The notes under the pieces were generated by a model. That model worked only from the letters and a program-made list of their open reading frames with translations, searched no databases and was not told the DNA's origin. Source: Oscillospiraceae bacterium (lineage in GTDB: Bacteria; Bacillota; Clostridia; Oscillospirales; Ruminococcaceae). Taken from it: a stretch of 64,000 nt of DNA. The stretch spans positions 56,370 through 120,369 of the forward strand of contig SVMR01000004.1 in assembly GCA_015067315.1 (NCBI GenBank). The letters run 5' to 3'. This document shows, one piece after another, positions 10,394 to 51,630 of this stretch. The stretch's first letter is position 1. The number at the start of each line of letters is the position of its first letter. The position numbers and the translations under genes were made by a program.

Positions 10394-11182
10394 TTATCCG
10401 AGGATTGCGCGGTCGGAAAAATGTCCGCCGACTTCGCTGAATTTTTTCATAAGGTCTTCAACGGTAAGCTTTTTCTTTTCTTCACCGGAAACATCATAAA
10501 CGATTCTGCCTTCGTTCATCATAATAAGGCGGTTGCCGTGTTTAATGGCATCGCTCATGTTATGGGTAATCATAAGTGCGGTAAGCTTGTTTTCGTTGAT
10601 GACTTTATCGGTGATTTCGAGAACTTTTGCGGCGGTTTTGGGGTCAAGGGCCGCGGTGTGTTCATCAAGGAGAAGAAGTTTCGGTTTAACCATAGTCGCC
10701 ATCATAAGGGTCAATGCCTGGCGCTGGCCGCCGGAAAGAAGTCCGACTTTTGCGGAAAGGCGGTCCTCAAGACCAAGGTCGAGAGAAACAAGCATATCGT
10801 GATAATGTTCTCTTTCCGCTTTTGTAACTTCCCAGCCAAGACCGCGTTTTTTGCCTCTTCTTGCGGCAAGAGCAAGGTTTTCTTCAATCTGCATGTTTGC
10901 TGCGGTACCGGTCATGGGGTCCTGGAAAACGCGGCCGAGAAGTGCGGCTCTTTTGTGTTCCGGAACAGCGGTAACGTCCTGTCCCGCAAGATGAATCGAA
11001 CCTTCGTCAATGGGCCATACTCCGGCAATTGCGTTGAGCAGGGTCGATTTTCCTGCGCCGTTGCCGCCGATTATGGTTACAAAATCTCCGTCCTCAAGAT
11101 GAAGATCGATTCCCTGAAGGGCTTTTTTCTCGGTGATTGAACCGGGGTTGAAAGTTTTTTTGATTCCTTTTAAATCAAGCAT
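10394..11182 (-). CDS. ABC transporter ATP-binding protein, TrpZ-like
   Basis: This cytoplasmic ATPase of an amino-acid-type importer has 262 residues. Walker A GGNGAGKSTLLN lies near residue 40, the Q-loop FQDP near 88, the signature LLSGGQRQALTL near 147, Walker B LLLLDEHTAALDP near 168 and the switch ITHN near 205. The DEHTAALDPK form and the short permease partner match the TrpXYZ/YtmLMN-like group of ABC_sub_bind transporters. It overlaps the permease gene by 8 bp and is the last gene before a strong terminator. Confidence 0.93.
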   Translation of the reverse strand: MLDLKGIKKTFNPGSITEKKALQGIDLHLEDGDFVTIIGGNGAGKSTLLNAIAGVWPIDEGSIHLAGQDVTAVPEHKRAALLGRVFQDPMTGTAANMQIEENLALAARRGKKRGLGWEVTKAEREHYHDMLVSLDLGLEDRLSAKVGLLSGGQRQALTLMMATMVKPKLLLLDEHTAALDPKTAAKVLEITDKVINENKLTALMITHNMSDAIKHGNRLIMMNEGRIVYDVSGEEKKKLTVEDLMKKFSEVGGHFSDRAILG

Positions 11183-12125
11183 TCTTTCCTGCCTCCTTTG
11201 CGCGTTTTCTTTCCGCTAATTTAAGGCGGAGGAAGGAGTTCTTGAAGTTCTTTTTAAGATAGGGAACTGCAAGGAAAATCGCAACGATTATTGCGGTGAA
11301 AAGTTTCATATCGTTTGTCGGGAGTTTGAGCCAAAGAACAACGCCCATGATGATGTAATAGAGGATACCGCCGATTACCGCGGAAGAAAGGCAGAGCCAG
11401 AAGGTCATGTGCTTTCCGAAGAATGCTTCCGCGAGAACTTCGCCGATGATGATGGAAGCAAGACCGATTACGATTGCGCCTCGGCCGATTGCAACGTCCG
11501 CAAAACCCTGGTACTGGGCAAGAAGACCGCCGGAAAGAGCGACGATTCCGTTTGAAAGAGCAAGAGCAAAAACCTTGCAGAAATTGATATTGATTCCCTG
11601 AGCCTTTGCCATTGCCTGGTTGCATCCGGTTGCGCGGATCGCGGAACCCGCTTCGGTTCCGAAGAACCAATAGAAAGCTGCAATAAGCGCGGCGGCGAAG
11701 ATAAGGGCAATTACAATCGCTTCGTTAACGGTACGAAGGGAAAGAATAAGGTCGTATTTATCGACGGAAACAGCCTGGTTCGGTTTGTTGCCGAGGATAT
11801 GAAGGTTGATGGAATAAAGTGCGATCTGGGTAAGAATACCTGCAAGAATAGGCGCAATGCCAAGCATGGTATGGAGAAGACCGGTAACAAGTCCCGCAAG
11901 CATTCCCGCGATTACCGCCACAATCATTGCCGCCCAGGCGGGCCAGCCCATGATTATAAGCATAACGGTTACTGCCGCGCCGGTTGCGAAGGAACCGTCA
12001 ACGGTAAGGTCCGAAAACTCCAAAAGCCTGTACGAAATGTACAGGCCAAGAGCCATTATTCCCCAAATTGCGCCCTGGGCAACATAGCCCGGGAAAGCGT
12101 TTAAAAGAGTTGTAATGTCAAGCAT
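11175..12125 (-). CDS. ABC transporter permease, TrpY-like
   Basis: This integral membrane permease of 316 residues has about eight hydrophobic segments, in the branched-chain/TrpY permease fold. GLYISYRLLEFSDLTVDGSFATG near residue 35 is the characteristic early loop, and RATGCNQAMAKAQGIN near 190 is the ATPase-contact region. The start is ATG 12125, with GGAGG 11 bases upstream; a TTG at 12143 is part of that ribosome site. It lies 36 bp after the binding-protein gene and overlaps the ATPase gene. Confidence 0.92.
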   Translation of the reverse strand: MLDITTLLNAFPGYVAQGAIWGIMALGLYISYRLLEFSDLTVDGSFATGAAVTVMLIIMGWPAWAAMIVAVIAGMLAGLVTGLLHTMLGIAPILAGILTQIALYSINLHILGNKPNQAVSVDKYDLILSLRTVNEAIVIALIFAAALIAAFYWFFGTEAGSAIRATGCNQAMAKAQGININFCKVFALALSNGIVALSGGLLAQYQGFADVAIGRGAIVIGLASIIIGEVLAEAFFGKHMTFWLCLSSAVIGGILYYIIMGVVLWLKLPTNDMKLFTAIIVAIFLAVPYLKKNFKNSFLRLKLAERKRAKEAGKNA

Positions 12126-12161
12126 TAAGAAATTTGCCTCCAAAATGGTATTTTAAATTAA

Positions 12162-13118
12162 TTATGCAAGAGGTGCATAGTCTTCCGGAACTTCGATTCC
12201 AAGAGCTTCGCAGTTTGCTTCGTTATAAAGTTTCTGAACTTCGGGAGCATACTGGATTTCCATATCGCCGGGGTTTGCGCCGTTTACAAGAATTTCGTAT
12301 GCCATAAGACCTGCCGCATAGCCGATATCATAGTAATCGATGGAAAGGGTTGCAACGCCGCATCCGCCGCAGATTCCGGATTCGCCTGCCACGATGGGTT
12401 TGCCTGCGGGAATTGCAACGTTTGCAATGGTTTCGGTGCAGGAAGCGGCGGTGTTGTCGGTGGGGATGTAAATTACGTCTGCTGCTGCGCAGGCGGCGGA
12501 AGTTACGTTTGCAACGTCGTTGGAATCAGCGAAGGTGAAAACTTCAACTTCGAATCCCATATCGGTGAGATATCCGGAAATAACGTCGGACTGATATACG
12601 GAGTTGGGTTCTGCGGAGCAATAGAGAATACCGATTTTCTTTGCTTCCGGGAAGAGTTCCTGAATCATTGCTGCCTGTTCATCAAGAGGAGCAAGGTCTG
12701 CGGTGCCGGTGATGTTGCTGCCGGTTTTTCCGGTCCAGCCTTCGATTTCAAGGGCGGTTGCATAGTCGGTGATGGAAGTTCCGACTACCGGAATGGTTGC
12801 GGATGCTGCGGCTGCTGCCTGGAGAGCGGCGGTTGCATTGCCCATCATAAGGTCAACGCCTTCCGCAACAAGCTGGTTGCAGATGGTGACACAGGTTGCG
12901 GCGTCGCCGGAGGCATTGTGTTCAACAAAAGTTACGTTGTCGCCGAGTTTTTCGGTAAGAGCAGCTTTAAAGCCTTCGGTTGCGGCATCAAGAGCAACGT
13001 GCTGAACAAGCTGGCAGATACCTACTTTGTAAGCGCCGTCGGATGCGGGTTCGCTTCCGCAGGAAGCCATGCAGAGAACCATTGCAAGAACCAAAAGAAT
13101 GCTGACGATCTTTTTCAT
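12162..13118 (-). CDS. ABC transporter substrate-binding lipoprotein, TrpX-like (operon copy)
   Basis: This extracellular binding lipoprotein of the ABC_sub_bind family has 318 residues. The lipobox is CMASC, with the lipid-bearing Cys near residue 20. The mature part has VGICQLVQHVALDAATEGF, FVEHNASGD, VDLMMGNATAALQAAAA, VVGTSITDYATALE and YIPTDNTAAS, all typical of TrpX-like proteins. The start at ATG 13118 gives the best spacing from GGAGG and the same length as its paralogue at 13604. Upstream lies a leader with an aromatic-rich peptide and a terminator, so the operon is probably attenuated. The substrate is inferred to be an aromatic amino acid and is not proven. Confidence 0.92.
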   Translation of the reverse strand: MKKIVSILLVLAMVLCMASCGSEPASDGAYKVGICQLVQHVALDAATEGFKAALTEKLGDNVTFVEHNASGDAATCVTICNQLVAEGVDLMMGNATAALQAAAAASATIPVVGTSITDYATALEIEGWTGKTGSNITGTADLAPLDEQAAMIQELFPEAKKIGILYCSAEPNSVYQSDVISGYLTDMGFEVEVFTFADSNDVANVTSAACAAADVIYIPTDNTAASCTETIANVAIPAGKPIVAGESGICGGCGVATLSIDYYDIGYAAGLMAYEILVNGANPGDMEIQYAPEVQKLYNEANCEALGIEVPEDYAPLA

Positions 13119-13145: not shown

Positions 13146-13184
13146 TTACAAAAAAAGCGATCCCCGGTTTTTGGGGACCGCTTT
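13146..13184 (-). terminator. Attenuator terminator ahead of the TrpX-like operon
   Basis: A 12-bp stem with one mismatch (13173-13184 with 13154-13165), a seven-base loop and a run of seven T on the minus strand form an intrinsic terminator. It sits between the promoter and the binding-protein start, only about 28 bases before it. Its 5' arm overlaps by four bases a segment (13181-13189) that can pair perfectly over 9 bp with 13208-13216, a candidate antiterminator. Confidence 0.78.
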
Positions 13185-13236
13185 GATTTACTTTTACATA
13201 AATCGCAAAATCAAAGACAGAGGCCAAAAGCCTTTT

Positions 13237-13326
13237 TTAAGAATTGTTCATGCGGAAATAAACGTTCTGGTATCGAACGTTAAAATACATGAAGTATTCT
13301 TTTCCGAAAACTTTCATGTTTTTCAT
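13237..13326 (-). CDS. Leader peptide rich in Phe and Tyr (29 residues)
   Basis: A short frame runs from ATG 13326 to a TAA at 13237. AAAGGA lies 10 bases upstream of the start. Of 29 residues, four are Phe (7, 12, 15, 24) and four are Tyr (11, 14, 19, 23), and no Trp codon is present. It lies between a near-consensus promoter and an intrinsic terminator upstream of the TrpX-like ABC operon. This is the layout of ribosome-mediated attenuation, where slow translation at scarce aromatic amino acids would favour read-through. The peptide has no other recognisable domain. Its role is inferred from layout and composition only. Confidence 0.62.
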   Translation of the reverse strand: MKNMKVFGKEYFMYFNVRYQNVYFRMNNS

Positions 13327-13370
13327 TGCCGCAAAATCCTTTCTGACTTTAATCGCTTTTGATGTTTAAA

Positions 13371-13399
13371 AGTATAACGCTTTAAAGAGATAAAGTCAA
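13371..13399 (-). promoter_or_regulatory. Promoter of the TrpX-like ABC operon
   Basis: TTGACT (13399-13394), a 17-bp spacer and TATACT (13376-13371) are read on the minus strand. The -35 box and most of the spacer (21 bp in a row) are identical to the promoter of the paralogous binding protein at 14612-14640. Confidence 0.82.
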
Positions 13400-13603: not shown

Positions 13604-14560
13604 TCAGCCGATTGCAACGTAATTTTCGGGAACGGTGATTCCAAGAGCGGCGCAGATATCTGCGTTATATTTCTTGACAACTTCGGGAGCATATCCGATT
13701 TCCATTTCGCCGGGGTTTGCGCCGTTAATAAGAATTTCGGCGGCCATCTGACCTGCGATGTAGCCGATATCATAGTAGCTGATGGAAAGAGTTGCCACGC
13801 CGAAACCTTTGCAGGCGTTTTCCTCGCCGGAGATAATCGGAACTCCCGCAGGAAGAGCAACGTTGTTTATTGTTTCCGCACAGGAAGCGGCGGTGTTGTC
13901 GGTTGGAATATAAAGAACGTCGGAAGAAGCGCAGGCGGCGGAAACCACGTTTGCAACGTCGTTGGAATCAGCGAAGGTGAAAACTTCGCAGGAAAGACCC
14001 ATTGCTTCAAGTTCCTCGATAACAACATTTGCCTGATATACTGAGTTGGGTTCCGCGGAGCAATATACGATACCCACGTTTTTTGCACCCGGGAAAAGTT
14101 CGGGAATCATTGCGGCCTGTTCATCAAGAGGGGCAAGGTCAGCCGTTCCGGTGATGTTTCTTCCGGTTGCGCCGTTCCAATCCGCAATTTCAAGAGCGGT
14201 TGCATAGTCGGTGATGGATGTTCCGATTATCGGAATTTCGGATGATGCCGCGGCGGCAGCCTGGAGAGCAGGGGTTGCGTTGCCCATAATAAGGTCAACG
14301 CCTTCGGAAACAAGCTGGTTGCAGATCGTTATGCAGGTTGCCTGGTCGCCGGAAGCGTTGTGTTCAATAAAAACAACATCTTCGCCCAAAGCTTCGGTGA
14401 GAGCGGCCTTAAAGCCTTCGGTTGCCGCATCAAGAGCCTCGTGCTGAACAAGCTGGCAGATACCAACTTTATATTTTCCGTCCGCGGCGGGTTCGCCTCC
14501 GCAGGCGGCAAAGGATAGAACCATTGCAAGAACGATGAGAATGCTTACGATTTTTTTCAT
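13604..14560 (-). CDS. ABC transporter substrate-binding lipoprotein, TrpX-like (solo copy)
   Basis: This is a paralogue of the binding protein at 12162-13118: same length (318 residues), same signal peptide style (lipobox SFAAC) and nearly the same motifs (VGICQLVQHEALDAATEGF, IEHNASGD, IGTSITDYATALE, YIPTDNTAAS). It has its own promoter and terminator and no adjacent permease or ATPase. It probably feeds the same membrane complex with a different ligand, affinity or expression level. The gene order suggests a tandem duplication. Its leader is short, about 50 bases, and has no leader peptide or attenuator. Confidence 0.92.
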   Translation of the reverse strand: MKKIVSILIVLAMVLSFAACGGEPAADGKYKVGICQLVQHEALDAATEGFKAALTEALGEDVVFIEHNASGDQATCITICNQLVSEGVDLIMGNATPALQAAAAASSEIPIIGTSITDYATALEIADWNGATGRNITGTADLAPLDEQAAMIPELFPGAKNVGIVYCSAEPNSVYQANVVIEELEAMGLSCEVFTFADSNDVANVVSAACASSDVLYIPTDNTAASCAETINNVALPAGVPIISGEENACKGFGVATLSISYYDIGYIAGQMAAEILINGANPGEMEIGYAPEVVKKYNADICAALGITVPENYVAIG

Positions 14561-51377: not shown

Positions 51378-51630
51378 AATCCCGTCCTTCGAATTTCTTC
51401 GAAAGACGGGAAATAAATTTAACCCGCGGTACCACTTTCGTTGGCGCAAAAAAACTGCGTCCGGCTCGATTCCGTATAACGGCGGCGCCGTCCGGTTTTA
51501 CTCCCTTTTCGGTTTCTTCCGGCTGCTCGAAAGTGAGTTCATCCGCTTTTCCGCTTCCGCCTTTCACCAAAACGGCGGCTCTCTTTAAAACGGCAAAAAC
51601 AGACTACTTGTTCTTTGTCAAAGCATTTAT
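51378..51630 (-). promoter_or_regulatory. T-box leader of leuS
   Basis: The leader RNA is read on the minus strand. The T-box sequence TGGTACCGCG (51435-51425) is a near-perfect match to the conserved tRNA-acceptor-binding motif. It is followed by the terminator stem CCCGTC.../...GACGGG (51381-51410) and a T-run. Upstream lies a long structured stem I region. GAACTCAC at 51540-51533 contains a CTC triplet that suits a leucine specifier. Uncharged tRNA-Leu would stabilise the antiterminator and switch on leuS. The specifier position is by eye. Confidence 0.9.

Follow-up and report, generated by a model that had tools for sequence, protein, structure and literature searches.

The window analysed here is the whole 64,000-nucleotide stretch of an Oscillospiraceae bacterium (GenBank assembly GCA_015067315.1, contig SVMR01000004.1). 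Its minus strand carries a trpX-trpY-trpZ operon for a substrate-binding protein, a permease and an ATP-binding protein. The operon is preceded, in the order of transcription, by a promoter, the Shine-Dalgarno-like motif AAAGGA, a 29-codon open reading frame (ORF) and a terminator with a U tract. Further upstream lies a first copy of trpX, with a promoter and a terminator of its own (Table 1). The original prediction, made from the letters of the sequence, had proposed at this place a Phe/Tyr-dependent attenuator for a TrpXYZ-like amino acid transporter. The near-consensus promoter, the frame with its ribosome site, four Phe, four Tyr and no Trp codons, and the intrinsic terminator were all found as it had described them.

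Table 1 Features of the trpX leader region and its surroundings (positions in the window)
Feature	Position	Strand	Description
trpZ-like ATP-binding protein	10394..11182	-	PF00005
trpY-like permease	11175..12143	-	PF02653
trpX, second copy	12162..13118	-	PF04392; substrate-binding protein, Glu/Tyr at the ligand-determining positions; predicted to bind tyrosine
Intrinsic terminator hairpin	13154..13184	-	12 bp, 7 GC pairs, followed by U tract
Antiterminator 3' side A'	13174-13166	-	CCAAAAACC; terminator arm and loop
Antiterminator 3' side B'	13180-13178	-	CGG
Antiterminator 3' side C'	13189-13181	-	AAAUCAAAG
Antiterminator 5' segment C	13216-13208	-	CUUUGAUUU
Antiterminator 5' segment B	13220-13218	-	CUG
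Antiterminator 5' segment A	13224..13232	-	GGCUUUUGG; begins 4 nt past the stop codon
Leader peptide ORF	13237..13326	-	29 codons, MKNMKVFGKEYFMYFNVRYQNVYFRMNNS; 4 Phe, 4 Tyr, 0 Trp
Hairpin within the ORF	13261..13281	-	AACGUUC/GAACGUU; conserved aromatic codon 19 in the loop
Leader promoter	13371..13399	-	TTGACT-N17-TATACT; 10/12 consensus matches
Inverted repeat, leader promoter	13380..13395		CTTTA-N6-TAAAG; between -35 and -10
Terminator of the first trpX copy	13592-13561		Upstream of the leader promoter
trpX, first copy (trpX1)	13604..14560	-	76 % identity to the second copy; no leader
Inverted repeat, trpX1 promoter	14636-14621		CTTTA-N6-TAAAG
trpX1 promoter			TTGACT-N17-TATAAT, read by eye

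The leader peptide and its conservation

The last base of AAAGGA lies 10 nt ahead of the start codon of the leader ORF. At least eight Phe or Tyr codons were obtained in 0.14 % of 20,000 nucleotide shuffles of the ORF body, and at least five within 12 codons in 1.8 % of 20,000. The aromatic codons of the window leader are spread across 18 codons (positions 7-24), unlike the tandem runs of classical leaders.

The original prediction had suggested checking related genomes for this leader and for retention of its aromatic codons. A full orthologous leader was found in 13 of 15 genomes of the same genus, the window's own included, at 73-100 % identity and with the reading frame open in each of the 13. 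Positions 11, 12, 14, 19 and 23 are aromatic in all 65 cells of these orthologues, and the changes seen there are synonymous (UAU/UAC, UUU/UUC) or exchanges of Tyr and Phe, nothing else. Within codons 1-24 the sole length difference is 6 nt. The C-terminal end of the frame is variable, with total lengths of 27-30 codons and 40 codons in genome G010, in which the usual stop codon is missing and the frame (L015, 1575-1697) runs on through the antiterminator segment. Several non-aromatic residues (N3, E10 and R18) are also constant in all 13 peptides.

Two genomes of the genus, G006 and G011, lack the orthologous leader. In G006 the promoter was matched and the leader body was not; about 85 nt separate the -10 element from trpX, and this region has no ORF preceded by a Shine-Dalgarno (SD) motif but does retain a hairpin resembling a weak terminator (-12.4 kcal/mol). 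Loss of the frame with retention of the terminator in relatives had been named beforehand as evidence against attenuation; the frame is open in 13 genomes, and the outcome is not clean, since the frameless G006 with its weak hairpin is one such case in 15. The leader of G011 is unrelated; it encodes ...LASHRYYYYYYAFLRPKDV (YYYYYY) and is followed by a strong terminator. Comparison of the leader DNA with 61 genomes gave no convincing match beyond the genus, only short ones with a best E value of 5e-5. Seven of the same-genus relatives (six with the leader, plus G006) are Oscillospiraceae metagenome-assembled genomes (MAGs) from the gut of goat, sheep, cattle, roe deer and water deer.

The hairpin within the ORF shows double changes in four of its seven pairs, and its covariation score was equalled by none of 500 shuffles. 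In the window both of its arms are altered (S/A to N/V codons) and the loop codon is still aromatic (Phe to Tyr). It is possible that this is a pause hairpin. The pN/pS of the ORF is 0.70, a value as low as which was obtained in 26 of 100 column shuffles; this by itself is no proof of coding, and since the ORF overlaps the covarying hairpin, part of its conservation lies at the RNA level.

Two folds of the leader RNA

None of 200 dinucleotide shuffles folds as well as the leader RNA (13362-13140; z -5.7), and the minimum free energy (MFE) structure of the full leader additionally pairs the 5' end of the transcript with downstream stretches. When the 3' arm of the terminator is left out, the computed structure is an interrupted helix of A-A', B-B' and C-C', in which the terminator loop and 9 of the 12 5'-arm bases of the terminator are engaged. 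The perfect 9-bp pairing of 13208-13216 with 13181-13189 in the original prediction, four bases of which (13181-13184) are shared with the terminator stem, is present. The two mutually exclusive folds that it was taken to allow were obtained by computation and are kept in the orthologues; however, the pairing noted is the apical part alone of the longer helix.

In MFE structures of the region from segment A to the terminator loop, helix B is formed in all 13 orthologues and helix A in 12, G014 being the one in which it is broken, while the apical hairpin varies. With a longer stalled segment, helix A is missing from the MFE structure in G009, and 3 bp of it are left in G014. The energies of the antiterminators range from -15.4 to -24.3 kcal/mol, compared to -16.8 to -23.7 kcal/mol for the terminators. 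The z scores of the antiterminators against 300 shuffles each range from -1.0 to -5.6, the weakest being that of G004 (z -1.0, 46 of 300 shuffles as good).

In the alignment, 93.6 % of the cells are paired in helix A, 94.2 % in helix B and 77.9 % in helix C. Covariation of the antiterminator is modest, its score being equalled by 18 of 500 shuffles; three of its pairs have double changes, a number as high as which was found in 4 of 500 shuffles, and these pair counts are affected by MAFFT misregistering G012 and partly G013. Covariation of the terminator is strong (0 of 500 shuffles), and 8 of its 10 double-change cells are at alignment columns 68-69, which correspond to the internal loop of the antiterminator. 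Thus the bases that pair in both folds mostly hold and those that pair in the terminator alone move.

In 12 of 13 orthologues segment A starts 1-9 nt past the stop codon and should, given the generally known size of the ribosome footprint, be covered by a ribosome that has reached this codon. In the MFE structures of the full length the terminator wins, and the switch must therefore be kinetic.

It seems very likely that the leader (13399-13146) is a ribosome-mediated transcription attenuator. It is predicted to open the operon, whose product is a predicted tyrosine importer, under a shortage of charged tRNA-Tyr or tRNA-Phe. Once a ribosome had reached the stop codon, most of GGCUUUUGG would be covered by it; the antiterminator could then not close, the terminator would form and transcription would stop. 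A ribosome stalled at the Tyr or Phe codons would leave GGCUUUUGG free to pair with the 5' arm and the loop of the terminator ahead of the synthesis of the 3' arm; with the antiterminator formed, transcription would run into trpX-Y-Z. The stalling and the read-through are what we infer from the arrangement of the parts: a promoter, a ribosome site and a short ORF that lie ahead of a terminator, a layout conserved in all 13 orthologues; regulatory codons (8 of 29 Tyr or Phe) cognate to the inferred substrate; an antiterminator that by computation, and with modest covariation, excludes the terminator; and a segment A that in 12 of 13 orthologues lies within the expected footprint of the ribosome at the stop codon and in G010 is traversed by the frame.

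Phe/Tyr leaders at other trpX genes

The regions upstream of 120 trpX genes, 102 of them distinct, were compared. Forty were from trpX genes of the family, the best-scoring matches besides those of the window genome and of G014, and 80 were from named loci, the best 80 of 576 relatives, mostly Oscillospiraceae, Lachnospiraceae and other Clostridia MAGs. A leader was taken to be an SD-preceded ORF of 8-70 codons that ends just ahead of a terminator. The terminator scan misses some hairpins, such as that of L121 (MNFFFAPEYRYYYYYCSEK), which has an interrupted U tract and was left uncounted.

A pair of ORF and terminator was found in 33 of the 102 distinct regions. At least five Phe or Tyr within 12 codons occurred in 15 of the 102 (15 of the 33 with a pair) and at least six in 12, and there was no such leader in the other 87 regions. 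The YYYYYY leader of G011 is one of the 15. In shuffled ORF bodies (200 rounds) leaders with at least six were on average 0.24 and at most 2. The starts of 259 other genes from the 80 named loci served as a control; they gave 57 pairs, none of which reached five or six Phe or Tyr (15/102 compared to 0/259, Fisher 2.7e-9). The terminator alone was not enriched, being found near the gene start in 57 of 102 trpX regions and within 200 nt at 129 of 259 control starts.

With terminators this common near gene starts, and a weak hairpin without an ORF in G006, the hairpin might be read as a plain terminator that insulates the second trpX from the first, with the ORF arisen by chance. We give this reading hardly any credence: the ORF rich in Phe and Tyr is absent from all 259 control starts, and the second hairpin, which lies between promoter and gene, is not needed for ending the upstream gene because trpX1 has a terminator of its own. 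The attenuator remains the preferred reading of the hairpin.

The leaders are not all independent, as L096, L097, L102 and L105 are alike, as are L099, L133 and L134; L086 and L092 are from the window's genus, L092 being among the 15. The leaders of other genera share Phe and Tyr codons with the window leader, not its sequence; examples of the peptides are MFRHFFAAAYYYYYYFFKESNKGLCCN (L134), MNRSFYGRYFYFRAYFEALYFDMNKS (L065), MFSAARPAAPVFFYYFSRAPFWGRYCGVKSF (L047) and ...RFFFAQLFFGIFGFWFTPFPI (L097). The 18 best windows of 12 codons with at least four Phe or Tyr, which were chosen for these residues, contain 67 Phe, 43 Tyr and 1 Trp. A single Trp is present in 5 of the 18 whole leader peptides, and one of the 18, L159, is probably a chance ORF.

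When all pairs of amino acids were scored over the 33 leader ORFs, Phe/Tyr tied for first place with Phe/Arg at a threshold of at least five and with Ala/Phe at thresholds of at least six and at least seven. Runs of at least four of a single residue in 12 codons were found for Phe in 11, Ala in 6, Arg in 4 and Tyr in 3 of the ORFs. As runs of Phe outnumber those of Tyr, many of the leaders may respond mainly to Phe, although the ligand residues of the binding proteins speak for Tyr.

L134, L099 and L133 have in common the C-terminal residues LCC, encoded by UUGUGCUGC, and because these codons pair with the terminator arm, the end of the ORF in these leaders contains an antiterminator segment. 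The three peptides are otherwise different and are accompanied by one RNA module, UUUGUGCUGCA paired with UGCACAGA in the terminator arm, which forces the LCC ending. L136 has the same UUUGUGCUGCA past its stop codon and a different arm. When leaders were tested singly for pairing of the terminator 5' arm with upstream sequence, 4 of 17 (L133, L142, L092 and L105) exceeded their shuffles at the 5 % level.

The diversity of the peptides bears on another explanation, nascent-peptide arrest of the kind known for TnaC. There, the conserved KEYFMY..RFM..YC peptide would itself stall the ribosome on free tyrosine or phenylalanine, and codon starvation would not be the signal. The constant non-aromatic residues of the orthologues would suit such a peptide, but the other trpX leaders have no common peptide motif and share the density of Phe and Tyr alone, the YYYYYY leader included. 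Furthermore, codons 16-22 are under constraint at the RNA level from the hairpin, and arrest would, as we see it, require stalling when the amino acid is plentiful, contrary to the control of import with the present geometry. We therefore consider arrest improbable, and attenuation by codon starvation the better account of the window leader.

Ligand residues and T-boxes of the TrpX group

The closest solved relatives of the window TrpX are 6HNI, 3LFT and 3LKV. 6HNI is CD0873 of Clostridioides difficile, a tyrosine-binding lipoprotein of the same family, with the same Glu/Tyr determinants, and a distant homologue (phmmer E 4.7e-43). The preference of CD0873 for tyrosine is attributed to Glu263 together with Tyr279, that of VC_1101 (3LKV) for phenylalanine to Ala together with Tyr, and that of SP1069 (3LFT) for tryptophan to Ala together with Gln284 (PMC6816091, partial text). 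In the alignment the window TrpX has Glu and Tyr at the CD0873 positions, with the 16-residue spacing (245/261 of the aligned fragment, 246/262 when numbered from the ATG at 13118). The same two residues are found in 82 of 83 aligned TrpX proteins, a set made up of both window copies, the C37 paralogue and the proteins of the 80 named loci; the exception is the C37 paralogue, which has Val/Tyr. The 40 family loci, which contain gene starts alone, were left out of the set, and among them the protein of L061 was read separately. Against NF041285, the tryptophan type, the window TrpX scores 221.2 bits, below the curated cut-off of 390. From these residues we infer that the ligand is tyrosine. The TrpXYZ-like transporter of the original prediction stands as far as the trpX-Y-Z operon is concerned; predicted tyrosine importer is the better name. 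The genome also encodes prephenate dehydrogenase and prephenate dehydratase domains, and as these are kept, the importer is probably not the sole source of Tyr and Phe.

Two T-boxes give further readings. The third trpX homologue of the genome, the C37 paralogue (G000:C37:63293-64566; L003, L172), has 34 % identity; the T-box immediately ahead of it scores 90.2 bits, short of the cut-off of 93, and has the specifier UUC (Phe). In a relative, G072 (L061, G072:C231), a T-box of 107.8 bits with the specifier UAC (Tyr) stands before a trpX whose product has Glu/Tyr; it is the one T-box at trpX among the 60 of the 120 loci that were scanned. The reading of specifiers was checked on three T-boxes of the genome, CUC, AUG and UGC, which are followed by genes that we take to be LeuS-like, MetN-like and CysE-like, respectively. 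The window itself contains a T-box of 108.8 bits (51399-51630, minus strand); its specifier is CUC (Leu), and the gene behind it is leucyl-tRNA-synthetase-like.

The T-box specifiers and the ligand residues agree, pointing to Tyr for the group of the window TrpX and to Phe for the C37 paralogue. The leader codons, unlike the specifiers, are a mixture of Tyr and Phe. That Tyr/Phe rather than Trp should be the signal, as first proposed, is supported by the codons of the other leaders, the tyrosine-type residues of TrpX and the Tyr T-box at the relative's trpX.

The T-boxes of related trpX genes raise the question of whether the leader might be a structured RNA, a riboswitch or a degenerate T-box, that binds tyrosine, phenylalanine or tRNA directly, the frame being incidental. 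A highly structured leader with a covarying hairpin, and the pN/pS that column shuffles readily match, would be in keeping with this. However, at the gathering level Rfam gave in the whole window only the T-box at 51399-51630 and a tRNA, none in the leader, and no T-box (RF00230) was among 22 hits up to E 10. The frame, its start and the aromatic codons are retained in 13 of 13 orthologues, and what leaders of other genera share with it is the choice of codons and not the sequence. Direct binding is in our judgement very improbable, and the translated attenuator is preferred here as well. As for known leader families, Phe_leader (RF01859) scored 24.7 bits in the leader, compared to a cut-off of 55, and was rejected.

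Promoter and operator

In the promoter, TTGACTTT and TTTAAAG are invariant across the 13 aligned sequences. The CTTTA-N6-TAAAG repeat of both trpX promoters fits the operator consensus cacTTTAnnnnnnTAAAgtg published for HisR of Firmicutes, a regulator of the TrpR family (PMC9413887, partial text). A match to the operator at 9 or more of 10 positions was present in 46 of the 102 distinct trpX upstream regions, compared to 1.85 expected from mononucleotide shuffles. Genome-wide, the eight hits of ACTTTA-N6-TAAAG on the two strands fall at six distinct places (3 for the reversed pattern used as control), two of which are the promoters of the two trpX copies, and the genome contains one gene of the TrpR family. 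That the attenuator and a repressor of the TrpR family exert dual control over the importer is, on these grounds, a candidate mechanism and a reasonable hypothesis. As trpX1 has the same promoter and operator and no attenuator, one binding protein may be made while the importer operon is shut. A further CTTTA-N6-TAAAG site (G000:C31:12921-12938, L184) lies upstream of a gene that presumably encodes a polar-amino-acid substrate-binding protein; such a site is expected for a HisR-type regulon.

Discussion

The window leader has the layout of the enterobacterial trp, his and pheA attenuators, namely a short ORF with regulatory codons, a terminator, an exclusive antiterminator and blocking by the ribosome at the stop codon (general knowledge; PMC9413887, partial text). 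It differs from them in belonging to another RNA family, in having an importer as its target, in its occurrence in Clostridia, in its mixed and spread Tyr and Phe codons and in an antiterminator that makes use of the terminator loop.

Leader-peptide attenuation is already known in Firmicutes and has been predicted in Clostridia, and the proposed Tyr/Phe version on a TrpX-type importer is what is added here. His attenuators have been predicted in the Bacillus cereus group, in Peptostreptococcaceae/Lutispora and in Erysipelotrichales, with a his transporter possibly also among their targets (PMC9413887, partial text), and a His leader-peptide attenuator has been predicted for Bacillus (PMC2965389, partial text). 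A Leu-rich ilv attenuator of Staphylococcus aureus is supported by a reporter and mutants in a paper which also cites predictions of attenuators in Lactococcus and Streptococcus (PMC5794164, partial text). To the view that peptide attenuators for aromatic amino-acid import are rarely described in Clostridia it should be added that histidine ones have been predicted there. These attenuators resemble the window leader and sometimes replace a T-box (PMC9413887 and PMC5794164, partial texts); they differ in responding to His or Leu and in acting on his operons, hisS paralogues and ilv-leu. In the partial texts of PMC9413887, PMC2965389 and PMC5794164 on His and Leu attenuators there is no Tyr/Phe leader.

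The one case of regulation of a TrpX-type importer found in print is trpXYZ of Streptococcus suis (PMC9382623, partial text). There, too, an importer of the TrpX family is under 5' attenuation by starvation for an aromatic amino acid, but through a tRNA-binding Trp T-box with the specifier UGG and with no leader peptide. The uORFC-13-1 motif upstream of aroF in Acholeplasma is likewise a predicted leader with Phe codons by a terminator outside Proteobacteria, and differs from the window leader in lineage, gene and RNA (PMC8632094). A Tyr/Phe leader on a TrpX-type importer was not found among the matches listed from the open-access literature, as judged by titles and the beginnings of abstracts.

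Taken more widely, it is conceivable, and to us only slightly less probable than the contrary, that tyrosine importers of gut Clostridia possess a family of Tyr/Phe leader-peptide attenuators of several origins, which replace the T-box and are combined with a promoter carrying a TrpR/HisR operator. If dual control is confirmed, the system would be a Firmicutes counterpart, on import, of the dual control of trp in E. coli. A recurrent Tyr/Phe leader on TrpX importers would mean that uptake, too, is under translation-coupled attenuation in Clostridia, and such attenuation requires in these leaders a ribosome close behind RNA polymerase. A group of proteins now called tryptophan transporters would be re-annotated as predicted tyrosine importers, and the codons of the leaders would provide a simple readout of substrate specificity in uncultured gut bacteria.
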